From positions 4,120,267 to 4,184,266 of the forward strand of contig NZ_CP030287.1 of NCBI RefSeq assembly GCF_003287935.1: 64,000 nt of DNA, written 5' to 3'. The DNA comes from Streptomyces sp. ICC1 (GTDB lineage: Bacteria > Actinomycetota > Actinomycetes > Streptomycetales > Streptomycetaceae). A program made the position numbers and the translations under genes. The notes under the pieces were generated by a model. That model was not told where the DNA came from. It ran no database searches and saw only the letters and a program-made list of their open reading frames with translations. This document shows positions 35,890 to 60,488 of the stretch, one piece after another (position 1 is the first letter of the stretch; the number at the start of each line of letters is the position of its first letter).

Positions 35890-36140
35890 CGATCGACACC
35901 GTGCTCGGGGACCGCGGCTACCGACCGCTGCAGTTCTCGGTCCGTCGGCGGACCCGGCCCACCTGCGGCGCCGCCGTGGCCATGGGGCAGGATGGCAGCT
36001 CGTTCCACATGCGCGCGCGTGTGCGAACACGCCTCCGTGCACGACGAACTGACAGGTGACAAGGTGAAGACACACCTCATACGGCGGCCGGCAGCGCCCG
36101 CCGCCGCATCCCCGGTCCGACGAGGGGCGGAGGGCGTCCG

Positions 36141-37268: not shown

Positions 37269-37284
37269 CGGCCGGTAGCCGCCG

Positions 37285-37313
37285 GTCTCCCCGGGACGCG
37301 GCCCCGGGGAGAC
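37285..37313. terminator. Bidirectional terminator between mscS and P450
   Basis: GTCTCCCCGGG (37285-37295) pairs perfectly with CCCGGGGAGAC (37303-37313) around ACGCGGC. It separates the two convergent genes and marks the left border of the biosynthetic cluster. Confidence 0.85.
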
Positions 37314-37322
37314 GGGCCGGCG

Positions 37323-38753
37323 TCACACGTCCGGGCTGCCCGCCGCCCGGGCCGGCTCCGGCTCCGGCTGGTTCGCGTACGGGCAGCGCGGCGCGCGTGC
37401 GGTGATCGTGGCCACCATCCTGCCCGGGTTCAGCGTGAGCTGCGGCAGCCGCGGGAGGGTCAGGCTGCCGGGGTGGAGATCGACCTTCCAGTGGCTGAGC
37501 AGGGAAGCCAGCAGCAGGACGCCCTCGATGAGCGAGAACTCGTCGCCGATGCACTTGCGGGCACCGCCGCCGAACACGGTGACGGGCACCTTCGGCTGGC
37601 GGCCGGTCTGGATCCAGCGGTCGGGGTCGAAGCGCTCCGGGTCGGGGTAGAGCGACGGCAGATGGCTGATGAGGTACGGGCTGTAGGCCATGGTCGTCCC
37701 CTCCGCCACGGAGTACGGGCCCAGCTTGGCGTCCGACATCACCTGCCGGGTCAGGAACCAGCCGGGCGGGTACATGCGCAGGGCCTCGTTCAACACCTGC
37801 CGCGTGTACGTCAGTCGCGGAAGGTCCTCCCAGGTCGCGGTGCGGCCCCCGAGCACCGTGTCGATCTCCTCCGTCAGCCGTCCGAGGACCTCCGGGTGCA
37901 CGGCGGCCAGGTACAGGGCCCAGCCCACCGAGCCCGCCGTCGTCTCCGTGCCGGCCGAGTACATGGTCACGGCCTGGTCCACGAGTTCCTCGTCCGACAG
38001 GGCGGGGGAGTCGCTCTCCGGGTCGCGGGCCGAGATGAGCATGGACAGCAGGTTCGTCTCGTCGGTGGCGCCGCGTTCGCGGTGCTCGGCGACGAGGGAG
38101 GTCATGGTCTCGCGCACGCGCTTGGTGGCCTGGTCGTAGCGGACGTTGCCGGGCGTGGGCACCTTGCGCAGCGGCTTCGGCAGGAGGCTGTGCCGGGTGA
38201 AGCCCGACAGGAGGATGTCGAAGTCAGTGGCCAGACGGGTGTGGATGCCCCGCTCCAGGCGGGTGCCGAAGACTGCGGCGATGACCACGTCGGCGGCGAT
38301 CTTGCGGATCTCCACGCTCAGGTCGAGGGTCTGGCCGTCGCGCCAGCCGCCGAGGATGGCGTCCAGCCGCTCGGTCATGATGCCGGCGTAGCCGGGGAAC
38401 CGGGCCTGGTGGAAGGCCGGTTGTATGAGCCGGCGCTGGCGCCGGTGCTCCCCGCTCGGGCACGTGGCCAGCCCCTGTCCGCCCGCCTCGCGCAGCCGGT
38501 CGAAGAGCGGTCCGCCCTTGTCGAAGACGCGGTCCTGGACCAGGAACGAACGGGTCAGTTCGGGATCGCACACCACGACGATCGGCTTGCGGCCGAGCCG
38601 GATCTCCACCAGCGGACCATGAGCGGGCAGGCCCCGCAGGAAGGCCAGCGGTGCCCGCAGGAGCGCGGGCAGGTGCCCGAGGACGGGCGTCGCACCGGGT
38701 GCCTTCGGTACCGACGGAATGCTTTCCGTGTCACTTTTCATGTCGCCATCCAT
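37323..38753 (-). CDS. Cytochrome P450, cluster-associated
   Basis: 476 residues. I-helix AGTETTA, ExxR as EALR, and the heme loop FGGGARKCIGDEF with Cys401 are intact. The protein resembles the terpenoid P450 group (CYP170-like and eukaryote-like actinobacterial P450s) rather than the macrolide CYP105/107 group: it has an LHRRQRR-type segment (GEHRRQRRLIQPAFHQARFP). It likely hydroxylates the cyclised terpenoid of the adjacent cluster. It reads away from the main operon, with a shared 140-bp promoter region. No reductase gene is nearby, so it must use housekeeping ferredoxins. The start could also be the ATG four codons on. Confidence 0.85.
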   Translation of the reverse strand: MDGDMKSDTESIPSVPKAPGATPVLGHLPALLRAPLAFLRGLPAHGPLVEIRLGRKPIVVVCDPELTRSFLVQDRVFDKGGPLFDRLREAGGQGLATCPSGEHRRQRRLIQPAFHQARFPGYAGIMTERLDAILGGWRDGQTLDLSVEIRKIAADVVIAAVFGTRLERGIHTRLATDFDILLSGFTRHSLLPKPLRKVPTPGNVRYDQATKRVRETMTSLVAEHRERGATDETNLLSMLISARDPESDSPALSDEELVDQAVTMYSAGTETTAGSVGWALYLAAVHPEVLGRLTEEIDTVLGGRTATWEDLPRLTYTRQVLNEALRMYPPGWFLTRQVMSDAKLGPYSVAEGTTMAYSPYLISHLPSLYPDPERFDPDRWIQTGRQPKVPVTVFGGGARKCIGDEFSLIEGVLLLASLLSHWKVDLHPGSLTLPRLPQLTLNPGRMVATITARAPRCPYANQPEPEPARAAGSPDV

Positions 38754-38784
38754 TCTCTACTCGTTCTCAATCCTTCCTCCTAAT

Positions 38785-38836
38785 GTCTCATGCAGGGTTG
38801 CACCGCACTCGAGGCAACCTAGACCCTTCGTGAGAC
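38785..38836. promoter_or_regulatory. Nested inverted repeats in the P450/prenyl-synthase divergent region
   Basis: GTCTCA (38785-38790) pairs with TGAGAC (38831-38836), and inside it GGTTGC (38796-38801) pairs with GCAACC (38814-38819). The 140-bp spacer is AT-richer than its surroundings and must hold both promoters. The nested repeats are candidate operators for a regulator that is not encoded in the cluster itself. Confidence 0.4.
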
Positions 38837-38893
38837 TTGCCGGTCCTCTTCGCCTGAAAGACGGCATGGAGGTCTCGGGGGAAGGAACCGTCA

Positions 38894-39949
38894 ATGAAGG
38901 AGATATCGGCCCTGCTCGGAAGTGAATTTCCGACCGACGGCGGACTCGTTCAGATTCAAGAACGGCTCAAAGGCGACCTGGAGCGGGTCAGGGAAAGTCT
39001 CTACTCGCTCGCCGTGCCGCCGCACCAGAGGATCCACGAACCGATCATGTACGCCGTGGAGCAGACGGGCCGGCTGCTGCGGCCCACGCTCGTGCTCCTG
39101 TCCTCGTACCTCCTCGAGGGCGAGCCGGCCCGGGTCACGCCCCAGCGCGTGATCGACGGGGCGGCCATCGTCGAGATCCTGCACATCGCCACCCTGTTCC
39201 ACGATGATCTGATCGACGAAGCGCAGGTCAGGCGTGGTAGGCCCACCTCGAACGCCAAGTACGGCGGCGCCATCGCGCTGCTGACCGGGGACTACCTCCT
39301 CGCGCGCTGCATGCAGGCCGCGGCCTCCCTCGGCGCGTCCCGCATGATGACGATGGCGGAGACCCTGATCGACCTGTGCGTGGGCCAGATGCTGGAGACC
39401 ACCCAGCTCTTCGACTCCCTGCGCACCGAAGAGGAATACCTCACCTCGATTTCCGGAAAGACCGCGCGCCTGATCCGGACGGCCTCGCTCATGGGGGCGT
39501 CCCAGGCCGGCGGGGACATCGCGTCCCAAGAAGTGCTGGAGAATTTCGGACACAATCTCGGAATGGCATTCCAGATCTGGGACGACATCCTGGACATCTG
39601 CAGCCAGGAAACGGGAAAGCAGCCCGGAAGGGACGTTCTCAACGGCGTGTACACCCTTCCGGTGATCTACGCCGTAAGGGATTCCCCGGAGCGCATTCTT
39701 CCGGTATTGCGCGAGCAGCCGATTTCCCCGGCGCAGTGCCAGGCGATCATCGACGCCATGCACGAGTCCGGTTCGATCGGCCGGGCGGCCGACGTGGCGC
39801 AGCGCTACATGGCCCAGGCCCTGGACGCGCTGGAGTCCCATCCGTCCTTCGCGCACCGGGCTCCTCTCGTACGCAAGTGTCTGCGCGACCTGGTCGACGG
39901 GCTCGCGTCCCAGCACCCCGCTCAGGAAGCGCTCGTCGAGACGGTGTGA
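38894..39949 (+). CDS. Long-chain all-trans polyprenyl diphosphate synthase
   Basis: 351 residues. First Asp-rich motif DDLID (Asp104, 105, 108) and second DDILD (Asp230, 231, 234) are intact, as in IspB/HepT-type synthases. Residues just before the first motif are ATLFH; small residues (Ala, Thr) at positions -5 and -4, instead of Tyr or Phe, are known to allow long chains, so C30-C40 rather than C15-C20 is my inference. GGAAGGAA lies 6 bases before the ATG. It is the first gene of the operon and would make the prenyl donor for the UbiA-type enzyme at 40733. Confidence 0.9.
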   Translation: MKEISALLGSEFPTDGGLVQIQERLKGDLERVRESLYSLAVPPHQRIHEPIMYAVEQTGRLLRPTLVLLSSYLLEGEPARVTPQRVIDGAAIVEILHIATLFHDDLIDEAQVRRGRPTSNAKYGGAIALLTGDYLLARCMQAAASLGASRMMTMAETLIDLCVGQMLETTQLFDSLRTEEEYLTSISGKTARLIRTASLMGASQAGGDIASQEVLENFGHNLGMAFQIWDDILDICSQETGKQPGRDVLNGVYTLPVIYAVRDSPERILPVLREQPISPAQCQAIIDAMHESGSIGRAADVAQRYMAQALDALESHPSFAHRAPLVRKCLRDLVDGLASQHPAQEALVETV

Positions 39950-40016
39950 ACCGATCGCGCCGCAAGTGGTGTCCACGCTCAGCCGGTCCCGGCTGGGTCG
40001 ATCCCGGAGGGTTGTC

Positions 40017-40739
40017 GTGTCAGGGCTCCGAACCGATTTCATCAGCGATTACGATGGTCTCGCCGACCAGTGGTGGGACCCTAGAGGACCGCTAGCACCG
40101 CTCGGCTGGATCGCTCGCGCCCGCGCCGAGCACATCCCGCCCGCCGCGCGCGAGCAGGCCCGACTGCTCGATGTCGGCTGCGGGGGCGGCCTGTTCGGCC
40201 CCCACGTGGCCGGCAAGGGCTACCGCCTGGTCGGCGTCGACCTCTCGGCCAAGTCCCTCGAAGAGGCGCTGCGCCACGGCTTCGACGAGGTGGTCCGCAC
40301 CGACATCTCCGAACTCCCCTTCCCCGACGAGTCGTTCGACGTCGTCACGGCGGGTCAGTGCCTCGAACACGTACCGGATCCCTACGGGGTGGTGGCGGAG
40401 CTGTGCCGGGTCCTGCGCCCGGGCGGAACACTGGTCGTCGACACCATCGCCGACACCAGAATCGCGCGGCTGGTCTCCATCACCCTCGCCGAGAACCTGC
40501 CCCTGCCGGGCAGGCCGGCCCGCGGCACCCACGACCACCGCCTCTTCGTCAACCGCGAGCGCCTGGTGAAGGCCGCGCGGGCGCACGGGGTGGAGCTCGA
40601 GCTGCACGGCCTGCGCCCGAGCTTCCGCGACGGGATCGGCTACCTGGCCCGGCGCCGCGAAGGGGTCCGCATGGTTCCCGTCCGGTCCACCGGCGTTCTC
40701 TTCCTCGGGGCGGGCACCAAGGCGGGCCCCACATGGTGA
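40017..40739 (+). CDS. Class I SAM methyltransferase (UbiG-like)
   Basis: 240 residues from GTG at 40017, with GGAGG 7 bases upstream; the longer frame to 39966 lacks this. SAM motif I is LLDVGCGGGLFG (50-61), followed by GVDLS and PFPDESFDVVTAGQCLEHVP. The sequence reads like UbiG, the O-methyltransferase of ubiquinone synthesis (DYDGLADQWWDPRGPLAPLG resembles the UbiG start). In this cluster it could methylate a phenolic oxygen of the prenylated aromatic. The stop overlaps the start of the UbiA gene by 7 bp. Confidence 0.85.
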   Translation: MSGLRTDFISDYDGLADQWWDPRGPLAPLGWIARARAEHIPPAAREQARLLDVGCGGGLFGPHVAGKGYRLVGVDLSAKSLEEALRHGFDEVVRTDISELPFPDESFDVVTAGQCLEHVPDPYGVVAELCRVLRPGGTLVVDTIADTRIARLVSITLAENLPLPGRPARGTHDHRLFVNRERLVKAARAHGVELELHGLRPSFRDGIGYLARRREGVRMVPVRSTGVLFLGAGTKAGPTW

Positions 40740-41629
40740 CGACGGATCAGCGGCCGCCGGTCCGCGGCGCCGTGCGCACCTGGGTGGTCGGCGCCCGGCT
40801 CAAGACCCTGCCGGTGACGCTGGCGCCGATCGTGGTGGGATGGGCGGTCGCCCGCTCGCAGGGCCACTTCAGCTGGTGGCGCGCCGCCCTGACCCTGCTC
40901 TTCGGCCTGGGCTTCGTCCTGGGCACGAACTTCTTCAACGACTACAGCGACGGGGTGCGGGGGGCCGACGACGAACGGGTGGGCCCCGTCCGCCTGGTGG
41001 GATCGGGGCGGGCCTCGCCGCGCCAGGTCCTGCGCATGGGGCTCGCCCTGTACGGCGTCGCGGTCCTGGCCGGCGCGGTCATGGCGGTGACGATCTCCTG
41101 GTGGCTGCTCGCGCTGGCCGCGCTCTGCGCGGTCGGCGGCTGGTTCTACACCGGCGGGTCCCGGCCCTACGGCTACCTGGGACTGGGGGACGTCAGCATC
41201 TTCCTCTTCCACGGGGTCATCGCCGTGTGCGCCACCGCATTCATCCAGCTCGGCCGGGTGCCCCTGCTCGCCCTCGGCGCGTCGGTACCCATCGGCCTGC
41301 TCGCCGTCGCGCTGCTGACCACGAACAACCTCCGCGACATCCCGACCGACACCGCCGCGGGGAAGATCACCCTCGCGGTGCGGCTGGGCGACGGACGCAC
41401 CCGCGTGTACTACGCCCTGTGCGTCGCCGCCGCCTTCGCGTCCGGACTGCTCCTGGCGACCGCCCGGCCCTGGCTGCTGCTCCTGCTCGCCGCCGCCCCG
41501 TCCGCCGTCCTCCCGCTGCGGCGGGTGCTCGGCGGGGCGCGCGGCAGCGATCTGATAGCGGCGCTGGAGCAGACCTGCGTACTGCTCCTCGTGTACGGGG
41601 CCCTGCTGGCGACCGGACTGGTCCTGTGA
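40733..41629 (+). CDS. UbiA-family prenyltransferase, MenA-like
   Basis: 298 residues, about eight membrane spans. The two Asp-rich motifs for prenyl-diphosphate/Mg binding are NDYSDGVRGADDERVG (Asp70, 73, 79, 80) and NNLRDIPTD (Asp202, 206). The first is the specific signature of MenA, 1,4-dihydroxy-2-naphthoate prenyltransferase, which couples prenylation with loss of a carboxylate. As other menaquinone genes are absent and the operon makes an aminobenzoate, it probably prenylates that acid, perhaps with decarboxylation. It acts in the membrane. Confidence 0.88.
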   Translation: MVTTDQRPPVRGAVRTWVVGARLKTLPVTLAPIVVGWAVARSQGHFSWWRAALTLLFGLGFVLGTNFFNDYSDGVRGADDERVGPVRLVGSGRASPRQVLRMGLALYGVAVLAGAVMAVTISWWLLALAALCAVGGWFYTGGSRPYGYLGLGDVSIFLFHGVIAVCATAFIQLGRVPLLALGASVPIGLLAVALLTTNNLRDIPTDTAAGKITLAVRLGDGRTRVYYALCVAAAFASGLLLATARPWLLLLLAAAPSAVLPLRRVLGGARGSDLIAALEQTCVLLLVYGALLATGLVL

Positions 41630-43191
41630 CCGGCCGGAGCGGGACCCCGCGGACGCCGGACACCCCCGGGGCCGCGGTGGCCCCGGACCACGAAGTGCTG
41701 GTCATCGGCGCCGGGTTCTCCGGAATCGGCACGGCGATCGGCCTGCGCAAGGCCGGCATCGAGGACTTCGTGGTCCTGGACGAGCAGGACGACATCGGCG
41801 GCAGCTGGCACGCCAACCAGTACCCCGGCATCGCCGTGGACATCACCGCCTTCTCCTACTCCTTCGCCTTCGAGCCCTCCCCGTCATGGACCCGGGCGTT
41901 CCCTCCCGGCGCGGAACTGAAGGCGTACGCCCGGCACTGCGTGCGCAAGTACGGGCTGGGCGGCCACCTGCGGCTGAACGCGAGGGTCGTGCGCGCCGAG
42001 TACGACGGGGCCGCGCACGTGTGGACCGTCTTCCTGGCGGACGGCACCGCGACCACCGGACGGTTCGTCATCTGCGCCACCGGCTGGCTCACCAAGCCCA
42101 AGGCGCCCGACATCGAGGGACTCGACACCTTCAAGGGCGAGGTCGTGCACACGGCGCGCTGGGACCACTCCCTGGAGCTCAGCGGCCGCAACGTCGGGCT
42201 GATCGGCACCGGCGCCTCGTCCGTGCAGCTCGTCCCGGAGATCGCCCCCGACGTGGAGCGGCTCCACGTCTACCAGCGCACCCCCATCTGGGTGTTCCCG
42301 AAACCGGACTTCGCGATGCCGGCCGCCGTCAGCCGACTGTTCCGGTCGGCCCCGTGGACGCAGCGCCTGGTCCGGCTGTTCACGGACACGGTGACGGAGC
42401 TCAGCTTCGTGATCGCCATGATCTACCACCGCCGGTTCCCCTTCCTGGTGAAGGCCGGGGAAGCGCTGTCCCGGCGCCATCTGCGCCGGGAGGTGGGCGG
42501 CGATCCCGAGCTGATCAGGAAGCTCACCCCCGCCTACAAACTGGGCTGCAAGCGGCCGTCGTTCGGCAAGGGCTACTGGCGCGCCTTCACCCGGGACAAC
42601 GTCGAACTCGTCACCGAACGCATCGAGCGGATCACCGAGACCGGCATCCACACGGCGGACGGCGAGGAGCAGCTGCTCGACGTACTCGTGCTCGCCACGG
42701 GCTTCCACGTCCTGGAGAACCTGCCGCCCTTCCCGGTGCACGGCCCCGCGAACCGGGAGCTGAGGGAGTTCTGGCGGACCGAGCGCTTCCAGACGTACGA
42801 GGGCAGTTCGGTGAAGGGCTTCCCGAACCTCTGGTTCATCGTCGGGCCGTACTCGTTCACCGGCGGATCCTGGTTCGGAATGATCGACTACCAGGTCACC
42901 CACGCCCTGCGGGTGATCGGCGAGGCCCGCCGGCGGCGGGCCACGGAGGCCTCCGTCCGGCCGGAGGAGCACGACAAGTCCTTCCGCAGGACGCTGCGCA
43001 GGCAGCCGGGCACCGTGTTCCTCGACGAGAGCTGCCGGCGCGCGAACACCTACTACCTCGACGAGCGCGGGGACGCGCCGGCCGTCCGGCCGGCCACGCG
43101 GTACGAGGCCGCCTGGCGGGCCCGGCACTTCGACCTCGACCACTACCGGTACGACCACAGCTCCGGAGGCCGACGTGCGGATGCTCGCTGA
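41626..43191 (+). CDS. Flavin monooxygenase, Baeyer-Villiger type
   Basis: 521 residues from GTG at 41626, overlapping the prenyltransferase stop by 4 bp. FAD site GAGFSG (28-33), the type I Baeyer-Villiger fingerprint FKGEVVHTARW (169-179), and the NADPH site GTGASS (194-199) are all present. It could insert oxygen next to a ketone or hydroxylate an aromatic amine in the terpenoid product. The last 30 residues overlap the start of the next gene by 17 bp. Members of this branch are hard to tell from N-hydroxylating monooxygenases. Confidence 0.85.
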   Translation: MTGRSGTPRTPDTPGAAVAPDHEVLVIGAGFSGIGTAIGLRKAGIEDFVVLDEQDDIGGSWHANQYPGIAVDITAFSYSFAFEPSPSWTRAFPPGAELKAYARHCVRKYGLGGHLRLNARVVRAEYDGAAHVWTVFLADGTATTGRFVICATGWLTKPKAPDIEGLDTFKGEVVHTARWDHSLELSGRNVGLIGTGASSVQLVPEIAPDVERLHVYQRTPIWVFPKPDFAMPAAVSRLFRSAPWTQRLVRLFTDTVTELSFVIAMIYHRRFPFLVKAGEALSRRHLRREVGGDPELIRKLTPAYKLGCKRPSFGKGYWRAFTRDNVELVTERIERITETGIHTADGEEQLLDVLVLATGFHVLENLPPFPVHGPANRELREFWRTERFQTYEGSSVKGFPNLWFIVGPYSFTGGSWFGMIDYQVTHALRVIGEARRRRATEASVRPEEHDKSFRRTLRRQPGTVFLDESCRRANTYYLDERGDAPAVRPATRYEAAWRARHFDLDHYRYDHSSGGRRADAR

Positions 43192-43603
43192 GGTGCGCGG
43201 CAGGGACCGCGAGCTGTGCCTGTTCTACGGGATCTTCTCCGTGGCCGGCTCCCTGGTCATGGGGGCGCTGGCCGTCGACTTCGTGGTGGACAACATCCAC
43301 GACGGCGTCTTCGGCGTCATCCGCACCTTCATGCGCGACGCGCTGACGAACCCGGCGGCCCGGTTCATCTACGCCGACCTGTTCCTCATCTGGGCGGCGC
43401 TGGCGGGCTTCATGGTCGTCGAGGCCCGGCGGCACGGCATCCGCCACGTGTGGGCGTACATCATCGGCGCCCCGGCGCTGGCGCTGTGCGCGAGCTTCAC
43501 CGCCTTCATGTACGTCCGCCAGCTCAAGATCGCGGCCGCGCGCGGCGGGGGACCGAGCCCCGTCCCCGCGGCCTCCCACGAATTGACGAGAGGGATGCAG
43601 TGA
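43175..43603 (+). CDS. Small membrane protein, DUF2834-like
   Basis: 142 residues from GTG at 43175, 6 bp after GGAGG and overlapping the upstream gene by 17 bp. Three hydrophobic spans are seen (about 15-40, 62-85, 92-115). FIYADLFLIWAALAGFMVVE followed by ARRHGIRHVWAYIIGAPALA fits DUF2834. No catalytic motif is evident. Its embedded place in the operon, coupled to the cyclase gene by TGATG, argues it takes part in the pathway, perhaps as a membrane scaffold or an integral-membrane cyclase or isomerase, but this is speculation. Confidence 0.75.
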   Translation: MRMLAEVRGRDRELCLFYGIFSVAGSLVMGALAVDFVVDNIHDGVFGVIRTFMRDALTNPAARFIYADLFLIWAALAGFMVVEARRHGIRHVWAYIIGAPALALCASFTAFMYVRQLKIAAARGGGPSPVPAASHELTRGMQ

Positions 43604-45498
43604 TGACCACCGAGGCCACCGAGGCCATCGCGCTCACCGCGAGCGTCGACCGTTCACTGGCCCTGGCCGCCCGTACGCTCCGGGAGCGCCAGGACCCGGC
43701 CGGCCATTGGAAGGGCGACTTCGAGACCAGCCTCATCGGCGAATCCGGCGAGGTCATCCTGCGGCACTTCCTGCGGCTGCCCGACGACGGCACGGCCGCC
43801 GCCGCGGCGAGCACGATCCTCAGCGAGCAGACCGCCACGGGCGGATGGGCGTCCTACTACCAGGGGCCCGACGAGCTCCTGCTCTCCATCTTCTGCTACG
43901 TCGCGCTGCGGCTCGCCGGCCACGACCCGGACGAACCGGAGATGCGCGCGGCCGCCGGGTCGATCCGGGCAGGCGGCGGCATCGAGGGCGTCGACAACCT
44001 CCTCATGCTGGCCTGGCTGGCCCTGATCGGGCTCTGGCCGTGGCGCGACATCCCGCTGATCCCGGCGGAGATCGTCCTGCTGCCCAGCAGGTTCCCCGGC
44101 AACATCTACCAGTTCGGCGCCGCCGCCCGCGGCATCGTCGTCGCCAACAGCCTGTTCATGGCCGACCGGCCGGTGGTCCCCGCCGGCTTCGACATCGCCG
44201 AACTGTTCGCCAAGCCCAGCGCCCGGCGCAGGCTCCCCAGGCCCGCCGCCCTGCGCATCGGGACGACCCTCACCCACTGGTACGCCCGCCACCCGATCGG
44301 CTTCCTGCGCCGCCGGGCCGTCCGCAAGGCCGCGGACTGGCTCGTGCGCACCCAGGAAACGGACGGCAGCTGGGGCGGCAACTGGCCGCAGACCGCGAAC
44401 GTCGTCATGGGACTGGACGCGGTCGGCTTCGGACAGGACCACCCGGTCGTCAAGGCCGCGATGGAGGGCCTCGACCGGTACGTCGTCGAGAAGGACGGCC
44501 ACCGCCGGGTCGAGATGTGGACCTCGGTGGTCATGGACACCGCCCTCGGCCTGCACGCGACCGCGGCCGCCGGCGGCCCCGACACGAAGTCCGCCGCCGA
44601 ACCCGCGGTCCGCTGGCTGCTCGCCAACCAGGTCACGGAGCTCGGCGACTGGGCCGTGCTGACCAAGGACCCGGTCGCCGGCGGATGGCCGTACGAGTTC
44701 ACCAACAACGCCAACCCCGACGCCGACGACACCGCCTTCGCGGTGGCCGCGCTGCGCCGGTTCCACCCGCGCGGCAGCGACGCGGCCGTCGACGAGGCGT
44801 GCGAGCGGGCCGGCCGGTGGATGGAGTCCCAGCAGTGCGACGACGGCGGCTGGGCCGCCTTCGAACCGCTGCGCTGGAAGCTGCCCGGACGCGACAAGCT
44901 GGCCGCCATCGGATTCCTCGAGGCGCCCTCGGCCGACGTCACCGGGCACGTCCTGGAAGCCCTGGGCTCCGACGGCCAGGCCCGCACCCCCGCCGCCCTG
45001 CGCGGCATCGAGTGGCTGCGCGAGAACCAGCACGCCGACGGATCGTGGCCCGGCTGGTGGGCCTGCTACCACCTGCACGGCACGAGCGCGGCCGTCACCG
45101 GGCTCACCGCGTGCGGGATCCCGGGCACCGACCCGGCCGTGGCCCGGGCCTGCGAGTGGATCGTCGCGCACCAGCAGGACGACGGCGGCTGGGGCGAGGA
45201 CATCCGCGCCCTGCACGACCCGGCCTGGATCGGGAACGGCGCGAGCACCCCCTCGCAGACGGGCTGGGCGCTCCTCGCGCTCATCGCCGCCGGCCGCGCC
45301 GACAGCGAAGAGGTCCGCGCGGGCCTCGAGTTCCTGGTCCGCACCCAGCAGGAGGACGGCGACTGGGCCGAACCCTGGCACACCTGGGTCGTGCACCACG
45401 ACGGCCTGTACTGGCGCGACAGCCTGCTGCGCCTGATCTACCCCGTGATGGCCATGTCGGCGTACCTGGCCCGCACCGACGGTTCGGAGGAGCGATGA
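43603..45498 (+). CDS. Class II terpene cyclase, squalene-hopene cyclase-like
   Basis: 631 residues. The catalytic DxDD motif is Asp373-Ala-Asp375-Asp376 (NPDADDTAF), the general acid that protonates a terminal alkene. QW repeats are at QETDGSWGGNW, QCDDGGWAAF, QHADGSWPGWW and QQDDGGWGED. Length and layout match SHC, a membrane-associated alpha-alpha barrel. There are no hopanoid genes (hpnC, hpnD, shc partners) around; the operon instead offers a prenylated aromatic acid, so I infer it cyclises the prenyl chain of a meroterpenoid. Start ATG overlaps the previous stop. Confidence 0.9.
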   Translation: MTTEATEAIALTASVDRSLALAARTLRERQDPAGHWKGDFETSLIGESGEVILRHFLRLPDDGTAAAAASTILSEQTATGGWASYYQGPDELLLSIFCYVALRLAGHDPDEPEMRAAAGSIRAGGGIEGVDNLLMLAWLALIGLWPWRDIPLIPAEIVLLPSRFPGNIYQFGAAARGIVVANSLFMADRPVVPAGFDIAELFAKPSARRRLPRPAALRIGTTLTHWYARHPIGFLRRRAVRKAADWLVRTQETDGSWGGNWPQTANVVMGLDAVGFGQDHPVVKAAMEGLDRYVVEKDGHRRVEMWTSVVMDTALGLHATAAAGGPDTKSAAEPAVRWLLANQVTELGDWAVLTKDPVAGGWPYEFTNNANPDADDTAFAVAALRRFHPRGSDAAVDEACERAGRWMESQQCDDGGWAAFEPLRWKLPGRDKLAAIGFLEAPSADVTGHVLEALGSDGQARTPAALRGIEWLRENQHADGSWPGWWACYHLHGTSAAVTGLTACGIPGTDPAVARACEWIVAHQQDDGGWGEDIRALHDPAWIGNGASTPSQTGWALLALIAAGRADSEEVRAGLEFLVRTQQEDGDWAEPWHTWVVHHDGLYWRDSLLRLIYPVMAMSAYLARTDGSEER

Positions 45499-46913
45499 CC
45501 GGCGTGACGGTGGTCGGTGGAGGCCTCGCCGGAATGACGGCGGCCTGGGCCATCCGCCGGTACGGGATTCCGGTACGGCTGATCGAAGCCTCCCCGGAGC
45601 TCGGCGGGATGGCCGGATCACGGGTGATCGACGGCCGGGTCGAGGACCACGGGGTGCACATCTTCCCCGCCTGGTACCTCAACACCCTGAAGCTCGTCGG
45701 GGAACTGGGCATCGCGGGGAACCTGCGCGAGACCGGGAGCCTGCACCAGCTGGTGCCGGGCGAGTTCCCCTCCTTCCGGTCGGCGGTCACCCCCGTCGCC
45801 GACCAACTGCTCTTCTTCTACGGGGTGATCGACCTGCTCGCCCAGAAGTACGGGGCCCGCGACGAATCGCTCCACCGGTTCCTGCACAGCCGCTGGTACC
45901 TGACGCAGGCGGCGATCGCCGACGTGGAGCACCTCTTCGTCGCCTCCAGCGCCGCGGAGAGCCGGTCCGTGTCGGCGGCGAGCTTCCGGGGCAGCATCGC
46001 CGCCTTCGCACGCCACCCCGGCAAGGTGCGCATGCCCAGGGGAGACCTCCAGCAGTGGTTCATCGGCCCCTTCCGCAAGCGGCTGGAGGAGGCCGGCGTC
46101 GAGATCGTCACCGGCACGGAACTCCTGCAAGTCTCCGTGGACGGCGGCCGCCTGGACACCCTCACCGTCCGCGACGGCGACGGCGCCGCCGTGACCGAGG
46201 ACGTCGACGGCCACGTGGTGCTCGCGCTCCCGCACGGCCGGCTCTCCGGACTCGGCCCGGCCGTCACGGGCGCGCTCCAACCACCGCACGGTGTCGAGGA
46301 GTTGGTATCGCGCCCGCTGGGGGCGCTGCACATCTACCTGCGCAGGCGCCTGCCGGGCATGCCCGCGGAACACATCCGGCTCGTCGAATCGCCCCACGCG
46401 ATCACGCTCATCGACGTCGGCCAGGTCTGGGAGGGCCACGAGACCAGTCTCCTCAACTGCGTGGTCGGCCGCGTGTCACGGCTCGCGGACCTGTCCGAGG
46501 ACGAGGCGGTCAAGATCCTCGTGGAGGAGCTCATGACTTACGTGCCGGTCCTCACCTGGGACGACATCGAGCACGTCTGCTACCAACCGCACCACAAGGT
46601 GCCGTTCTTCGCGCCCGGACCCGGCTCCGACCGGCTCCGGCCGGCGAGTTCGACCGCGCTCGCCAACCTGCACGTCGCCGGCGACTTCTGCGCGGGCCCG
46701 CCCGGAGTCGCGGGCATGGAGGGCGCCGTGCGCTCCGGACTGGCGGCCGCCGAGTCGGTGCGCCGGGCCCTGCGCCCCGACGCGCCGCCCGTGCGGATCG
46801 AGCGGATCGGCGGGATCAGCCCGGTGCTCGCCCGGGCACTGCGCGTGGCGCTCGCCCCGTTCGCGGCGGGCATCCGGCTGCTGGCCGGGCGCACCCGGGG
46901 AGGCCGGCCGTGA
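45495..46913 (+). CDS. FAD-dependent amine-oxidase/phytoene-desaturase-like oxidoreductase
   Basis: 472 residues from ATG at 45495, overlapping the cyclase stop. FAD site GGGLAG (8-13) with the following [12 protein letters not shown], and the C-terminal [20 protein letters not shown] is the typical end of the phytoene desaturase/HpnE family. A long hydrophobic tail from about 420 on suggests membrane contact. It could introduce double bonds into the terpene or oxidise a hydroxyl. HpnE itself needs HpnC and HpnD, which are absent. Confidence 0.85.
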
Positions 46914-47680
46914 TCGCCGTCGTGACCGGCGCGGCCGGCGGGATCGGCGCCGCGGTGGCGCGGCTGCTCGCGGAACGGGGCATCACCGTGGCCGCCGTGG
47001 ACCTCGACCCCGGCCGGCTGTCCGCCGTCGTCGACGAGCTCACCGCCGACGGGCTGCCCGTATGGGCCCATCCGGCCGATGTCACCTCCTCCGCCGAGGC
47101 CGAGGCGGTGGTGGCGGAAGTGGAGCGGGTCGCGGGTCCCATCGGCTACCTGGTGAACGCGGCCGGAGTGCTCCTCCTGGCCGAATCGAGGGCGCTGACC
47201 GACCGGGACTGGCACAGCACCTTCGCGGTCAACACCAACGGCGTCTTCTTCATGTCCCGGTCGGTCGTCAACCGCATGATCCCGCGCCGCCAGGGCGCCA
47301 TCGTCACCGTCGGATCGAACGCGGCGAGCATCGCCCGGGGGGCCATGGCCGCGTACGCCGCCTCCAAGGCGGCGGCGAGCGCCTTCACCAAGTGCCTCGG
47401 CCTGGAGGTCGCGCAGTACGGAATCCGCTGCAACCTCGTCGCCCCCGGCTCCACGGACACCCCGATGCTGCACGGCATGCACTCCGGCGGGGACGCGGCC
47501 GCCGCGTCCGTCGCCGGGGACCACGCCGCGTACCGGGTGGGCATTCCGCTGGGCAAGGTGGCGAGCCCCCAGGACGTCGCGCACGCCGTCCGCTTCCTGC
47601 TGTCCGAGGAAGCCGGACACATCACCATGCACGACCTCACCGTCGACGGAGGGGCGACCCTCGGAGCGCAGGTGTACTGA
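46910..47680 (+). CDS. SDR, 2,3-dihydro-dihydroxybenzoate dehydrogenase-like (EntA/DhbA type)
   Basis: 256 residues from GTG at 46910. NAD motif TGAAGGIG (6-13), NAAG (83-86), catalytic Ser136, Tyr149 and Lys153 (AYAASKAA). The [20 protein letters not shown] stretch is typical of EntA/DhbA. In siderophore pathways this enzyme makes 2,3-dihydroxybenzoate; in operons with PhzE and PhzD homologues it oxidises trans-2,3-dihydro-3-hydroxyanthranilate to 3-hydroxyanthranilate. The latter fits its neighbours. It overlaps the genes on each side by 4 and 1 bp. Confidence 0.9.
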
Positions 47681-48345
47681 TGGCCGGACTGCCTTCCATA
47701 GCCCCCTACCCGATGCCGCTGCCCGGAGAGCTCCCCCCGGTCCTCGTGGACTGGCGGGCCGACCCGCGGCGCGCCGTACTCCTCGTCCACGACATGCAGG
47801 AGTACTTCCTCGAACCCTTCCCGCCGGACTCCTCACCCGGAGCCCCCCTCGTCCACAACGCGGCCCGGCTGCGCCGGCACTGCGCCGAACTCGGCGTCCC
47901 CGTCGCCTACACCGCCCAGCCCGGCGGGATGACGCCCGAGCAGCGCGGCCTGCTCGTGGACTTCTGGGGACCCGGCATGCGGACGGCGCCCGAACACCGC
48001 CGGGTCGTCGAAGCCCTCGAACCGGCGGCCGGAGACTGGCTGCTCACCAAGTGGCGCTACAGCGCGTTCTTCCGCACCGATCTGCTGGAGCGCATGCGCG
48101 CCGAGGGACGCGACCAGCTCGTCCTCTGCGGCGTCTACGCCCACGTCGGCGTGCTGATGACGGCGGTGGACGCCTTCACCCACGACATCCAGCCGTTCCT
48201 GGCGGCCGACGCCGTCGCCGACTTCTCCGCCGACCACCACCGCCTCGCCCTGGAGTACGCGGCGCAGCGGTGCGCCGCCGTCGTCACCACGGCCGCCCTG
48301 TGCGAGTCCCTGACGGCCGCGCCCGCGGCGCAGGGCGTACGGTGA
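47680..48345 (+). CDS. phzD: Isochorismatase family hydrolase (PhzD-like)
   Basis: 221 residues. VLLVHDMQ has the catalytic Asp38 and LTKWRYSAF has Lys124; GVYAHVG is the conserved turn. Asp38 and a lysine near 122 are the catalytic residues known for PhzD. It hydrolyses the enolpyruvyl ether of isochorismate or, as in phenazine pathways, of 2-amino-2-deoxyisochorismate, giving the dihydro-hydroxyanthranilate for the SDR upstream. It has no aryl-carrier domain, unlike EntB, which argues against a siderophore NRPS role. The start overlaps the SDR stop by one base. Confidence 0.9.
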
Positions 48346-50252
48346 GCGCCGCGATCCGGGCCGGGGCCGGCCCGTTCGAAGCCCCGGACCTGCTGGCACG
48401 CGTACTGGAGGGGACCGCGCCCGCCTTCGCCCTCCTGTACCGGCCGGAGGCCACCTCCCCGGACACCCTGGAGGTGCTGCTCGGCGAGACGTCCGCCCAC
48501 CGCACGCTCGCCGACCTGCCGCTCCCCGACACCTCGGCCCCGGGGGCCGGGCACGAACTGCTCGCCCTGCTGCCCTACCGGCAGATCACCGAGCGCGGGT
48601 TCGAGGCCCACGACGACGGCGAGCCGCTGATCGCGATGACGGTCACCGAGCAGCAGGCGCTGCCGCTCTCCGAGGCCCTGCGCAGGCTGCCGAACGAGCC
48701 GGTCAAGGTCGACCAGGACGCCTTCGACATCCCGGACGAGGAGTACGCGGACATCGTGCGCCGCGTGATCGCCGACGAGATCGGCACCGGCGAGGGCGCG
48801 AACTTCGTGATCAAGCGGACGTTCACGGCATGGCTCCCCGGCTTCTCCCCGAGCGGAGCCCTGTCCTTCTTCCGCCGGCTGCTGGAACGGGAGACCGGCG
48901 CCTACTGGACCTTCCTCGTCCACACGGGCGACCGCGTGCTCGTGGGCGCCACCCCCGAGCGGCACATCAGCGTGCGGGGCGGCACGGCCGTCATGAACCC
49001 CGTCAGCGGCACGTACTGCTACCCCGAGGGCGGCCCCACCCTCGACGGGCTGATGTCCTTCCTGACGGACCGCAAGGAGACCGACGAGCTGTACATGGTG
49101 GTGGACGAGGAACTGAAGATGATGGTCCGCGTCTGCCCCTCCGGCGCACGGCTCGTCGGCCCCCACCTCAAGGAGATGGCACGCCTCGCGCACACCGAAT
49201 ACCTCATCAAGGGCCACACCGACCGCGACGTCCGCGACATCCTGCGGGAGACGATGTTCGCCCCGACGGTGACCGGATCGCCGCTCGAGAACGCCGCCAA
49301 GGTCATCAAGCGCCACGAGCACTGCGGGCGCGGCTACTACAGCGGCGCGGCCGCCCTCATCGGGCGCGACGCCTCCGGCGGCCGGACCCTGGACTCCTCC
49401 ATCCTGATCCGCACCGCCGACATCTCGGCGGACGGCCGGCTGCGGATCGGCGTCGGCGCCACGCTCGTGCGGCACTCCGATCCCGAGTCCGAGGCCCGCG
49501 AGACGCGCGCCAAGGTGTCCGGGCTGCTCGCCGCGCTCGCCGAGCCCGCGCCCACCCGCTTCGCCGGCCATCCCGACGTCCGCTCCGCCCTGGCGGCGCG
49601 CAACGAGCTCGTCTCCGGATTCTGGCTGGACGAGCCGGACGGCAGGACCGCCCCGGCGGCCGAACCGGCCGGGCTCCGTGCGCTCGTGGTCGACGCCGAG
49701 GACACCTTCACGGTGATGCTCGCCCACCAGATCCGCTCGCTGGGGCTCGAAGTGACCGTACGGCGCTTCGACGAGGAGTACGACACCGCGGCGTACGACC
49801 TCGTGGTGCTCGGCCCGGGGCCCGGCGACCCCCGGCAGCTGCTGCGCCCGAAGATCGCCCACCTCTGGTCGGCGGTGTCCCGGCTGCTGGACGAAGGACG
49901 CCCCTTCCTGTCGGTGTGCCTGAGCCACCAGGTGCTGAGCGCCCGGCTCGGGCTCGGCCTGGCCCGCCGCCCGTCCCCGAACCAGGGCGTACAGCACGAG
50001 ATCGACCTGTTCGGCCGGCGCGAACGGGTCGGCTTCTACAACACGTTCGCGGCCCGCTCCGACAGCGACGTCATCGAGCACCCCGCCTTCGGCCGCACCG
50101 CCGTGAGCAGGGACCCGGAGACCGGCGAGGTGCACGCCCTGCTCGGCCCGCACTTCGCCTCGATGCAGTTCCACGCGGAGTCCGTCCTCACCCAGGACGG
50201 CCCGCGGATCATCGGCTCGCTGATCACGGAGGTGATGGGGCGGTGCGGGTGA
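48342..50252 (+). CDS. phzE: 2-amino-2-deoxyisochorismate synthase (PhzE-like)
   Basis: 636 residues from GTG at 48342. A chorismate-binding domain (about 1-420: [44 protein letters not shown]) is fused to a class I glutamine amidotransferase whose triad is Cys526 (SVCLSHQV), His611 and Glu613 (QFHAES). QFHAES instead of QFHPES is typical of PhzE. The two-domain order marks PhzE rather than EntC or TrpE: it makes ADIC from chorismate and glutamine without elimination of pyruvate. Coupled to the phzD-like and SDR genes it completes a route to 3-hydroxyanthranilate. Confidence 0.92.
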
Positions 50253-50286
50253 CAGTCGACCGGAGAGAAGGGACACCCAGCGCGCC

Positions 50287-51510
50287 ATGGCTCACGCACT
50301 CGTCGCCGGAGGCGGCATAGGCGGCCTGGCCACCGCCCTCTCCCTGGCCCGGCGCGGGCACCGCGTCACGGTCCTGGAGCGCGCGGACGGCTTCGCCGAG
50401 ATCGGCGCGGGCATCCAGCTCGGCCCGAACGCCTTCCACGCCCTGGACCTCCTGGGCGTCGGCCAGGAGGTGCGCGACCGGGCGGTGTTCACCGACGAAC
50501 TGCGCTTCATGGACGGCACGACGGGCGAGAAGGTCGCCGCCATGCCGCTCACCGGGCGCTACCGCCGCCGGTTCGCCAACCCGTACGCCGTGGTCGCGCG
50601 CGGCGACCTCCACCACCCGCTGCTCTCGGCGTGCCGTGCGGCCGACGGCGTCGAGCTCGTCGCCGGGGCCGGCGTACGGGGGTACGCGCAGGACGGGGAG
50701 CGGGTCACCGTCTCCGGCGCGGACGGCCGCACGTTCACGGGCGACCTGCTCATCGGAGCCGACGGCATCCGCTCGGCCGTCCGCGCCCAACTGGCCGGCG
50801 ACGGCCCGCCCCGGGTCAGCGGCCACACCATCTACCGGTCGGTGATACCGATCGCGAAGGTGCCGGGGGACCTGAGGTGGAACGCCGTGACCCTGTGGGC
50901 GGGCCCCGACTGGCACTTCGTGCACTACCTTATCGGCGGCGGCAAGCACCTCAACCTCGCCGCGACCCTCGACGACGGCGCCGTCGAGCCCGTGGCGGGA
51001 CGCCCGGCGCGCCGCGCCACCGTGCTGGAGCGCTTCCGGGAGCTCGGCCCGACCGGCCGGCGCCTGCTGGAACTGGGCGAGGACTGGCGGGAGTGGGTGC
51101 TCTGCGACCGCGATCCGGTCGACGTCTGGACGGACGGCCGGGTCGCCCTGATGGGCGACGCCGCCCACCCGATGCTCCAGTACGCCGCCCAGGGCGCCTG
51201 CCAGGCCCTGGAGGACGCCGTGGTCCTGGGCGAGGTACTCGCGGACACCGCCGGCGAGGACATAGCACGGAGCCTGGAGCGGTACAACGGGCGGCGGCGC
51301 GAGCGGACCGCGCGCGCCCAGCTGGTGGCCCGCGAGATGGGCACGCGGCTCTACCACCCCGCGGGCGCGGCCGCGCGGGCGCGCAACGCGATGCTGCGGT
51401 CCCTGACCGAGGAGGACCTGTACGAGAAGGTGTCCTGGCTGCACGGCCACCGCCTGACGGGGACCGCACCGCGTGCCGTGCCCGCCTTGAGCGGCGTTCG
51501 ACCGCCGTAG
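50287..51510 (+). CDS. FAD-dependent aromatic hydroxylase (salicylate/3-hydroxybenzoate hydroxylase-like)
   Basis: 407 residues. FAD site GGGIGG (8-13), the middle DG motif (LLIGADGIRSAVR) and the ribityl-binding GD motif LMGDAAHPMLQYAAQGACQA (Asp291) are intact. This is the class A single-component hydroxylase type that works on hydroxybenzoates, with or without decarboxylation. In this operon it could hydroxylate or oxidatively decarboxylate the 3-hydroxyanthranilate-derived ring. It begins 34 bp after the PhzE-like gene and has its own GGAG site. Confidence 0.88.
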   Translation: MAHALVAGGGIGGLATALSLARRGHRVTVLERADGFAEIGAGIQLGPNAFHALDLLGVGQEVRDRAVFTDELRFMDGTTGEKVAAMPLTGRYRRRFANPYAVVARGDLHHPLLSACRAADGVELVAGAGVRGYAQDGERVTVSGADGRTFTGDLLIGADGIRSAVRAQLAGDGPPRVSGHTIYRSVIPIAKVPGDLRWNAVTLWAGPDWHFVHYLIGGGKHLNLAATLDDGAVEPVAGRPARRATVLERFRELGPTGRRLLELGEDWREWVLCDRDPVDVWTDGRVALMGDAAHPMLQYAAQGACQALEDAVVLGEVLADTAGEDIARSLERYNGRRRERTARAQLVAREMGTRLYHPAGAAARARNAMLRSLTEEDLYEKVSWLHGHRLTGTAPRAVPALSGVRPP

Positions 51511-51523
51511 GCGAGAAGGTCTC

Positions 51524-52816
51524 ATGGTGAGACATTCCTTCCGGTCCCTGTCCGTCCGCAATTTCCGCTATTTCACCCTCGGGCAGGTGCTCTCGGTCAC
51601 CTGCGGCTCGATGATGTTCGTCGCCCAGGACTGGCTGGTCCTGTCGATGTCCGGCGACTCGGCGCAGACGCTCGGCCTGGTGACCGCGCTGCAGTTCGCC
51701 CCGGTCCTGCTGTGCAGCCTCTACGCGGGACGGCTCGCCGACCGGTACGACAAGCGCGCCCTGCTGGTCCTGGCCAACATCGCGGCGGGCACCCTGGCCC
51801 TGCTGATGGGACTCCTGCTGCTCTCCGGCGCCGAGCGGCTGTGGCACGTCTACGTCTTCGCCCTGGCCCTCGGCACGGTCAACGCCGTCGAGACCCCGGC
51901 CCGCATGTCCTTCGTGAGCGAGATGGTCGGCCCCGACCTGCTGCCCAACGCCTCCGCCATGAGCGCCGCGTACTTCAACGTGGCCCGCATCGCGGGGCCG
52001 GCGATCGCGGGCGTGGCGATCAGCGGCTTCGGGGTGGTGTCCGTGGTGCTGCTCAACGCGGTCAGCTACGTGGCCACGGTCACCGCGCTGCTGGTCATGC
52101 GCCCGCACGAGCTCCAGCGCCCCGAGGTCCGGGCGCACGACGCCAAGGTGTCCGACGGGCTGCGCTACCTCGCGGGCCGCCCGGACCTCGTCCTGCCGCT
52201 GGTCCTCGTCGCCTGCATCGGACTGCTGGGCTTCAACTTCCAGCTGGTCCTGCCGCTGCTGGCCAAGACGGTGTTCCACACCGGCTCGGCCTCGTTCGGG
52301 ATGCTGACCACCGCGCTGGCCGCCGGCTCGCTGGCCGCGGCCTTCGTGACCGCCGGCCGCAGCGGCAGGCCCTCGCACCGGCTCGTCCTCGGCGCGGCCC
52401 TCGCCTTCGCCGCCGTGGAGACCGCCGCCGGCCTGGTGACCGGCTACGCCGCGGCGCTGGCCCTGCTGGGGGCCACCGGGTTCGCGGCCGCCTACTTCGC
52501 CCAGGCCGCCAACCACCGGATCCAGTTGGGGAGCGACCCGCAGTACCGGGGCCGGGTGATGGCGCTGTACTTCCTCATCTTCCAGGGCTCCACCCCGGTC
52601 GGCGCCCTGATCTGCGGCTGGATCGCCGACCACTGGGGGGTGCGGGTCGTCCTCTGGGGCGGCGGGCTCGCCTCGCTGGCCGTGACCGTCGTCCTGGTCT
52701 TCGTGTCCGCGGCGTACCGCCCGTACCTCTCCGACGAGCCCCGGCCGCAGGAGCCCGGCCAGGACCCCCGGGACCGTCCGGGTGAGGAGCACAAGACCCG
52801 CGCGAGCACGGGCTGA
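51524..52816 (+). CDS. MFS transporter (cluster exporter)
   Basis: 430 residues, about twelve hydrophobic spans, starting 13 bp after the hydroxylase stop. SLYAGRLADRYDKRALLVLA is the loop 2-3 signature, and DPQYRGRVMALYFLIFQGST marks the same DHA3-like group as the pump at 8769-10130. As the last gene of the operon it is the likely product exporter and possible self-resistance gene. The C-terminus (PRPQEPGQDPRDRPGEEHKT) is charged and cytoplasmic. Confidence 0.85.
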   Translation: MVRHSFRSLSVRNFRYFTLGQVLSVTCGSMMFVAQDWLVLSMSGDSAQTLGLVTALQFAPVLLCSLYAGRLADRYDKRALLVLANIAAGTLALLMGLLLLSGAERLWHVYVFALALGTVNAVETPARMSFVSEMVGPDLLPNASAMSAAYFNVARIAGPAIAGVAISGFGVVSVVLLNAVSYVATVTALLVMRPHELQRPEVRAHDAKVSDGLRYLAGRPDLVLPLVLVACIGLLGFNFQLVLPLLAKTVFHTGSASFGMLTTALAAGSLAAAFVTAGRSGRPSHRLVLGAALAFAAVETAAGLVTGYAAALALLGATGFAAAYFAQAANHRIQLGSDPQYRGRVMALYFLIFQGSTPVGALICGWIADHWGVRVVLWGGGLASLAVTVVLVFVSAAYRPYLSDEPRPQEPGQDPRDRPGEEHKTRASTG

Positions 52817-52853
52817 CCCCACGGCGGCCCGCGGCCCCTCCCGGCGTTCCCCC

Positions 52854-52980
52854 GTCCGGTGCGGTGCATCGCAAGGCGGAGGGCCGCCGCTTGTACTGGA
52901 CGTACTTCGGTGGTCCGACAACGCGGCGAGGTGCCGTGCCGGGCGCCGCGACCCGGTGAACCTTTCCGGTCACAGCACTA
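52854..52980. mobile_element. MITE, copy 2 (left end missing)
   Basis: 127 bp closely related to the right three quarters of the element at 5535-5697: shared core from GTCCGGTGCGGTGC onward and an identical right end, CCTTTCCGGTCACAGCACTA. The left inverted repeat is absent, so it is truncated. Its right end abuts the narK gene, and the closing CTA, read from the minus strand, is the narK stop codon TAG. Confidence 0.8.
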
Positions 52981-54405: not shown

Positions 54406-54407
54406 GG

Positions 54408-54776
54408 TTACCGGTCCTTCGGGTCGAGGAGCCACAGTCCGATCACGGCGAGGAAGGACAGGATCAGGAATCCCGCTCCCCACCAGGCCGTGCCGGTGTT
54501 TCCCTTCATCCACTCGTTGACGGTCACGGTGAGCGCCCAGAGCTGGCCGATCACGACCGTGAGGGCCAGGACCAGCCGCGCGTTGAGCCTCGAGGAGCGC
54601 TCGGGCTCCTGCTCGGTGCCGGCTCCGGGGCCCGGGCCGGTGTGCCGGATCCGGGGGTCCCCGTACCCGCTGGTGGAGCGGATCTGGGGGTACCTCTCGC
54701 GCACCGGGCGGTTGAGCCGGGGCTCGGCACTGCCCGGGTGGTACTCCGGGCGGGGAGGCAGCGGCGCCTCGCTCAT
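54408..54776 (-). CDS. Small membrane protein of the nitrate operon
   Basis: 122 residues; ATG at 54774-54776 overlaps the Rieske stop by 4 bp. A Pro/Arg-rich cytoplasmic first half (about 1-65) is followed by two spans (about 70-88 LVLALTVVIGQLWALTV and 98-116 AWWGAGFLILSFLAVIGLW). I do not recognise the family. Its place between the Rieske and narK genes suggests an accessory role in the membrane complex. Confidence 0.75.
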   Translation of the reverse strand: MSEAPLPPRPEYHPGSAEPRLNRPVRERYPQIRSTSGYGDPRIRHTGPGPGAGTEQEPERSSRLNARLVLALTVVIGQLWALTVTVNEWMKGNTGTAWWGAGFLILSFLAVIGLWLLDPKDR

Positions 54777-56040: not shown

Positions 56041-56046
56041 GGCGGG

Positions 56047-59468: not shown

Positions 59469-59551
59469 AGCACCACGCTAGGTGGTCTGTACCGATTAAG
59501 CCCGTTATGTAGAGCTCATCGGTGCGCCGTACGGGTGGCGGCCCCGGCGCC

Positions 59552-60379: not shown

Positions 60380-60423
60380 GGCAGGTGCTCCAGCTTCCAG
60401 ATTCCGTGGACTGATCTGGTGAC

Positions 60424-60465: not shown

Positions 60466-60488
60466 GTGCTCGTGGTCTCCCGTGAGGG

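Follow-up and report, generated by a model that had tools for sequence, protein, structure and literature searches.

What would a bacterium make with phenazine-type ring enzymes, a MenA-family prenyltransferase and a cyclase of the squalene-hopene cyclase (SHC) family, all encoded in one compact block? The question is raised by thirteen genes at positions 37323-52816 of a 64,000-nucleotide stretch of the Streptomyces sp. ICC1 genome (hereafter the window; C1:4120267-4184266 of a 9.03-Mb single contig). A sequence-only reading had proposed that the block serves the biosynthesis of an aminobenzoate meroterpenoid. We consider it likely that the whole is best explained as a specialised-metabolite cluster for a nitrogen-bearing meroterpenoid, and we find that the cluster belongs to a family that is real, rare and, as far as searched, uncharacterised, a variation on the bacterial meroterpenoid clusters. 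The genes, called by codon phase and with families checked against Pfam and NCBIfam, are as follows (scores in bits, given against the cut-off of the curated model unless otherwise stated):

37323..38753, minus strand: cytochrome P450; closest named model pentalenene oxygenase PtlI, far under its cut-off (389.8 vs 800); divergent, 140 bp from the operon
38894..39949, plus strand: trans-prenyl diphosphate synthase; both Asp motifs, Ala at -5 of the first
39966..40739, plus strand: UbiG-type S-adenosylmethionine (SAM) methyltransferase; TIGR01983, 105.7 vs 102.95
40733..41629, plus strand: MenA-family prenyltransferase; NF004751, 327 vs 264; TIGR00751, 230 vs 102
41626..43191, plus strand: Baeyer-Villiger-type flavoprotein monooxygenase (BVMO); distant PtlE relative; Rossmann motifs and FxGxxxHxxxW[PD] fingerprint
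43175..43603, plus strand: DUF2834 small membrane protein; about three hydrophobic segments
43600..45498, plus strand: SHC-family type II cyclase; DxDD motif (D374-A-D376-D377), remodelled cavity
45495..46913, plus strand: HpnE/desaturase-like flavin adenine dinucleotide (FAD) protein; best NCBIfam match HpnE (hydroxysqualene dehydroxylase), well under its cut-off (150.8 vs 283)
46910..47680, plus strand: DhbA/EntA-type short-chain dehydrogenase/reductase (SDR), predicted dihydrohydroxyanthranilate (DHHA) dehydrogenase; TIGR04316, 320.6 vs 300
47680..48345, plus strand: PhzD-type aminodeoxyisochorismate (ADIC) hydrolase; 297 to solved PhzD, 212 to vibriobactin isochorismatase; no NCBIfam cut-off passed
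48342..50252, plus strand: PhzE-type ADIC synthase; 772 to solved PhzE, 88 to the next solved relative
50287..51510, plus strand: 3-hydroxybenzoate 6-hydroxylase-like (3HB6H-like) flavoprotein; 487.6 vs 459
51524..52816, plus strand: major facilitator superfamily (MFS) exporter, EntS-like (below cut-off), accessory; family scan

All thirteen genes are intact, with no inner stop and no TTA codon, and their codon-phase signal is clear. The eight junctions from the methyltransferase to PhzE all overlap, by 1-17 bases, and the other gaps in the operon measure 16 bases (prenyl synthase to methyltransferase), 34 bases (PhzE to 3HB6H-like gene) and 13 bases (3HB6H-like to MFS gene). The earlier description of a 15.5-kb block with a divergent P450 and a tightly coupled operon thus holds, every named gene being present, and three of its gene descriptions could be sharpened. 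The desaturase-like flavoprotein is there, with its start moved to 45495, at an ATG overlapping the stop of the SHC gene, with a GxGxxG motif, and with HpnE as its nearest model; the PhzD-like enzyme is confirmed, its start now set to 47680; and the aromatic hydroxylase could be assigned to the 3-hydroxybenzoate 6-monooxygenase type.

The block was compared with related loci from named and sampled genomes, which gave 20 distinct loci including the window (the others being L001-L013, L092, L098, L101, L116, L117 and L118); 8 of the 11 cyclase regions from genome sampling duplicated L001-L013 and were counted once. A constant core of methyltransferase, MenA, BVMO and DUF2834 genes runs through the 20 loci, the UbiG-type methyltransferase being found in every one of them, although cut by the contig end in L007, a locus truncated at its contig ends. 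The search for DUF2834 provides a less biased sample, with hits in 9 of 392 Streptomyces genomes including the host, six with the cyclase and three without, and the other three core genes lay beside DUF2834 in 9/9. The cyclase clade is likewise rare, occurring in 7/394 family, 6/392 genus and 2/394 class-sample genomes (host counted in each). A tree built from the four core proteins grouped L116 with the window, L001 and L098 (support 100), made L117 the sister of L004 (support 83), a locus with the usual cyclase, and united the tryptophan-type loci described below in one weakly supported group (54). The Fisher values obtained in this comparison, 0.0009 and 0.0001, disregard kinship and the way in which the loci were collected.

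The head group of the predicted product would derive from chorismate. When tested against the anthranilate synthase type, PhzE is by far nearer to solved PhzE; PhzD is PhzD-type rather than EntB-type; and the SDR, which scores above the DhbA/PaeA cut-off, is encoded in the same operon by a gene overlapping that of PhzD. The limazepine study describes the same three enzyme types as making 3-hydroxyanthranilate (3-HAA), with Lim6 and Lim5 assayed and Lim4 assigned by homology (PMC5958127). Because of this close family membership and the characterised limazepine precedent, the three enzymes most likely specify a chorismate route to 3-HAA, which is the acid we predict. The 3HB6H-like enzyme would then probably hydroxylate 3-HAA in the para position to give 3,6-dihydroxyanthranilate; the counterparts of H213, Y217 and Q301 in the Rhodococcus enzyme, which we take to have catalytic roles, are kept in 13/13 homologues. 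The complete SDR-PhzD-PhzE-3HB6H set is found in 9/20 loci (the window, L001, L004, L010, L013, L098, L101, L117 and L118). Outside the window, the host genome also encodes a second PhzE homologue, 71% identical (G000:C1:2633339-2635195).

Five other loci (L002, L005, L008, L009 and L011) have none of these four genes in the stretch compared and carry a tryptophan/kynurenine set instead. Its families, scanned on L002 and L009 and carried to the other loci by similarity, comprise a DUF6875 domain, an alpha/beta hydrolase and a luciferase-like monooxygenase (5/5 each), kynureninase (4/5; 250.3 vs a cut-off of 246.4) and tryptophan 2,3-dioxygenase (3/5), and we infer from its position that the hydrolase is a kynurenine formamidase. 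DUF6875 and the prenyl synthase share one open frame in four of the five (L002, L005, L008 and L009; for example L009:1304-2989). This set also predicts 3-HAA, because a hydroxyl at C-7 of the indole becomes the 3-hydroxyl of kynurenine and of anthranilate. DUF6875 proteins are described as heme-binding and as oxidising L-tryptophan, some of them at C-7 (PMC13307353), and the limazepine account gives a precedent, among the pyrrolobenzodiazepines, for exchanging the chorismate route to 3-HAA with the kynurenine one (PMC5958127). No locus has both the 3HB6H-like gene (found in 13) and the luciferase-like gene (found in 5), and the luciferase-like enzyme is predicted to stand in for the 3HB6H-like one in the tryptophan-type loci. 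Just downstream of the core genes, two of these loci encode a B12-binding radical SAM protein (L008:14670-16046 and L009:13410-14804).

The enzyme that would join ring and chain is a MenA by two curated models, with Asp-rich motifs in 20/20 loci. A role in menaquinone synthesis was considered and rejected, since the host genome has two MqnA/MqnD-family (futalosine-type) genes and no MenD over the cut-off (five weak matches), and dihydroxynaphthoate is for the same reasons not expected as the substrate. The cluster MenA was the only match to itself in the host genome at E 0.001. Since 3,6-dihydroxyanthranilate would have the 1,4-dihydroxy-2-carboxy pattern of MenA's normal substrate, decarboxylative prenylation is the simplest proposal, and MenA probably converts this acid to an aminohydroquinone. 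As for the chain, Ala at position -5 of the first Asp motif of a prenyl synthase goes with a long product and Phe with a short one. Ala was found in 14/14 loci with a readable motif (L002 and L005 end short of it and are uncounted), and the divergent synthase of L118 has Phe, which suggests that the cluster synthase makes a long chain and the L118 synthase a short one.

The cyclase stands apart from ordinary SHCs. Of the 120 best matches listed for it, 31 are 59-99% identical and the other 89 only 41-44%; the former, with P0001 (99% identical to the window) and P0031 (partial) left out, constitute a clade of 29, and the 89 served as controls. Compared by alignment with the SHC of A. acidocaldarius (1gsz), with which it shares a full-length fold family and from which the residues are numbered, D374, D376, D377, D447, H451 and W489 are kept in 29/29 clade members. 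In contrast, E45, R127, W169, I261, Q262, W312, F437, F601, Y609 and Y612 are replaced in 29/29 and F605 in 28/29, and all eleven of these cavity or substrate-site positions have the A. acidocaldarius residue in 89/89 controls. The enzyme has kept the acid and rebuilt the cavity, and is expected to perform a proton-initiated cyclisation of something other than squalene, which is an unlikely substrate because residues invariant in the 89 next-best SHCs are replaced. The squalene/hopene reading was rejected on these cavity residues, even though the family cut-off is narrowly passed. Another SHC, 42% identical, is encoded in the host genome.

The genes that come and go with the cyclase help to divide the remaining enzymes between chain and head group. 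The HpnE-like gene is present in 17/17 loci with the cyclase and 0/3 without it, and the P450 gene, found in 12/20 loci, in 12/17 and 0/3, respectively, whereas the BVMO and DUF2834 genes accompany the head-group genes in loci lacking the cyclase as well. Because of these patterns, the methyltransferase, BVMO and DUF2834 proteins probably act on the head group, and the P450 and HpnE-like proteins probably on the chain. The BVMO fingerprint is found in 19/20 loci, with Y for the first F in L010, and the family predicts an oxygen insertion next to a carbonyl. In DUF2834, residues D68, E83, R85, R86 and R115 are invariant in 13 sequences, and a weak structure model is all-helical (mean predicted local distance difference test score, pLDDT, 66; predicted template modelling score, pTM, 0.39).

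Two loci with ring and core genes depart from the usual cyclase. In L117, the usual cyclase and HpnE-like genes give way to those for a DxDD-lacking SHC-family protein of 564 amino acids and a flavoprotein matching a squalene-epoxidase domain (L117:15183-18172), and the pair suggests cyclisation by epoxide opening. L118 encodes an IdsB/geranylgeranyl diphosphate (GGPP)-like synthase that scores below the cut-offs, and the 20 kb compared contain no cyclase gene. Judged by gene content, both the ring supply and the cyclase module are exchanged around a fixed core of methyltransferase, MenA, BVMO and DUF2834.

We propose that PhzE, PhzD and the DhbA-type SDR would convert chorismate to 3-HAA, and that the 3HB6H-like flavoprotein would add a hydroxyl para to the first to give 3,6-dihydroxyanthranilate. 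The prenyl diphosphate synthase would supply a chain, probably a long one, which MenA would attach, most simply in place of the carboxyl, yielding a 2-amino-3-polyprenyl-1,4-hydroquinone. The UbiG-like methyltransferase, the BVMO-type enzyme and the DUF2834 protein would modify the head group, as suggested by their genes staying together, while the SHC-family enzyme would protonate the chain via its DxDD motif and then cyclise it. The HpnE-like protein and the P450 would act on the chain or on the cyclised terpenoid, and the MFS protein may export the product. The sequence-only reading is supported by these assignments. Its ring from chorismate is upheld by the PhzE, PhzD and SDR families and narrowed to 3-HAA, probably hydroxylated once more; its prenyl chain, by the motifs of the prenyl synthase and the motifs and curated cut-offs of MenA; and its chain cyclisation with several oxidations is still the best reading, the families of the DxDD cyclase, P450, BVMO and hydroxylase having been confirmed. 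The aminobenzoate itself gains strength from the five loci whose kynurenine/DUF6875 set is predicted to give the same acid.

A bolder and more tentative hypothesis, to which we give appreciably less than even weight, is that the product may be a bacterial merotriterpenoid with a chain of about C30 on an aminohydroquinone, the chain being cyclised by an enzyme of the SHC family whose substrate shifted from squalene to aromatic-linked chains. The cluster family would then be modular in ring supply (chorismate or tryptophan) and in cyclisation (protonation, epoxide opening or none), and DUF2834 would be an unrecognised biosynthetic component.

Several points weigh against our interpretation. The product is predicted from genes alone, and the decarboxylation, the chain length and the order of steps are proposals from sequence. 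Since 16 of the 20 loci (L001-L013, L092, L098 and L101) were collected via the cyclase, its presence there is by construction; near DUF2834, L116 has the four core genes only. The 3HB6H-like gene occurs without PhzD and PhzE in four loci, L003 and L006 (SDR present) and L012 and L092 (without SDR); PhzD is encoded elsewhere in three of these four genomes, and in that of S. albus (L003) none was found anywhere at E 1e-30. Among the tryptophan-type loci, the dioxygenase is under its cut-off (291 vs 390.7), albeit with a strong Pfam match, and is missing from the stretch compared in L008 and L009, as are kynureninase and prenyl synthase in L011. Furthermore, the cyclase just passes the hopene cyclase cut-off TIGR01507 (434.7 vs 431.1), and position Y495, which we take to be part of the acid site in SHCs, is His in 29/29 clade members.

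We also considered the possibility that the product is a membrane quinone or lipid for the cell's own use, such as a rhodoquinone-like aminoquinone or a hopanoid-like lipid, rather than an exported metabolite. MenA, UbiG and SHC do belong to quinone and hopanoid families, 3-HAA is described as the proposed head group of animal rhodoquinone (PMC7434440), and a block of anaerobic-type genes adjoins the cluster. Yet the cluster is rare (6/392 Streptomyces genomes including the host), and the genome encodes futalosine proteins of its own as well as a further SHC. The anaerobic block is much more widespread, pyruvate formate-lyase (PFL) homologues being found in 62/199 sampled Streptomyces genomes, independent of the cluster, and NarK does not lie close to the cluster in L001-L013. 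The window does have an MFS gene, though only 2/20 loci do (the window and L001), and on balance we regard an own-use quinone or lipid as improbable.

Still more remote, in our view, is that two unrelated pathways share the block, with PhzE and PhzD making a phenazine or free 3-HAA and the SHC and HpnE-like proteins a squalene-derived triterpenoid. PhzE/PhzD pairs are also found outside such clusters and the hopene cyclase cut-off is just passed, but the eight overlapping junctions, the linkage kept across many loci, the absence of a phenazine-closing gene among the thirteen and the changed cavity residues all speak for a single pathway. A more serious competitor concerns the prenylation step alone: MenA might keep the carboxyl and yield a prenylated hydroxyanthranilic acid rather than an aminohydroquinone. 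The rhodoquinone proposal for COQ-2, as described, gives 3-hydroxy-5-nonaprenylanthranilic acid (PMC7434440), and the BVMO or other enzymes could later remove or keep the carboxyl; on the other side, the enzyme scores above two curated MenA cut-offs, and the substrate pattern of MenA is what the 3HB6H-like step would create. We therefore favor the aminohydroquinone and hold retention of the carboxyl, the main alternative at this step, to be unlikely, with perhaps one chance in a handful.

The borders of the cluster are set by homology breaks. On the right, the border lies between 52816 and 52980: three genomes (L137-L139, 20 kb compared from each) that have the nitrate/PFL block but no member of the cyclase clade match the window only from 52980 rightwards. 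Streptomyces sp. ISL-43 (L001) matches window positions 35946-52819 and L098 matches 37363-51450, and the minimal shared unit is estimated at about 37.3-51.5 kb. On the left, an MscS gene is common to the window and L001 only, among L001-L013, and between MscS and the P450 gene a strong hairpin (37270-37325) folds better than 195/200 shuffles. A consensus scan for promoters and terminators gave nothing above chance, and a search for plasmid carriage gave 0 matches at E 1e-100 among 72,556 plasmid records. The anaerobic-type block (52978-63960, minus strand) encodes NarK, a Rieske protein, a 4Fe-4S protein, a NasC/Fdh-like molybdoenzyme, a PFL-activating radical SAM protein, PFL with a glycyl radical domain and a DcuA/B-type transporter. 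A link with the cluster was set aside, given how much commoner this block is, the position of NarK in the related loci and the homology break at 52980. Elsewhere in the window, a predicted protein of 1051 amino acids (19623-22778, minus strand) matches nothing in Pfam at 1e-6, and its coding signal is clear.

The open-access literature yielded no cluster of this kind, closed papers and MIBiG lying outside the search, and the earlier statement that no characterised cluster has exactly this gene set stands within that scope. The ring genes resemble limazepine Lim4-Lim6, a PhzE, PhzD and DhbA-type SDR trio that is likewise exchanged with the kynurenine route within one compound class; as described, the Lim enzymes feed a non-ribosomal peptide synthetase, whereas the cluster here continues with the 3HB6H-like enzyme and MenA (PMC5958127). 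The zigralone (zig) cluster is a bacterial meroterpenoid cluster with a prenyl synthase, a UbiA-type prenyltransferase, methyltransferases, P450s and the DUF6875 domain also found in our tryptophan-type loci, but it has an indole/quinolone head, a thiamine diphosphate (TPP) enzyme and a Pyr4-like membrane cyclase instead of an aminobenzoate and an SHC-family cyclase (PMC13307353). A bacterial cluster outlined for sponge merotriterpenoids/adociasulfates combines a long-chain prenyl synthase, UbiA-superfamily transfer to a hydroquinone precursor and proton-initiated type II cyclisation; in that description, itself a hypothesis, there is no amino group, and epoxidation is proposed before cyclisation, as L117 might do (PMC5618424). 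The gromomycins are Streptomyces triterpenoids with a proposed hexaprenyl chain on a nitrogen-bearing head and cyclisation by protonation, but with a guanidine head and a cyclase, GroF, that is not SHC-family as described there (PMC12105684). Longestin (KS-505a) of Streptomyces argenteolus has a large cyclised polyprenyl chain on an aromatic acid, but its structure, compared by description and not by gene set, includes an O-succinyl benzoate and a sugar. Neither longestin, compared without its genes, nor gromomycin as described matches as the known product.

The cluster family predicts an undescribed class of natural products. Studies of how type II cyclases switch substrate could draw on an SHC clade in which the acid is kept and the cavity rebuilt. 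The exchange, inside a single cluster family, of two routes predicted to reach the same precursor opens the predicted head group to direct tests in named strains with related loci, such as S. albus NRRL B-1811, S. milbemycinicus NRRL 5739, K. purpeofusca NRRL B-1817 and Wenjunlia vitaminophila DSM 41686. A 2017 review proposed an origin of this kind for sponge merotriterpenoids and, in the sections consulted, knew no pathway (PMC5618424). If our interpretation is true, the family would supply bacterial genes for the making of cyclised prenyl-(amino)hydroquinones.

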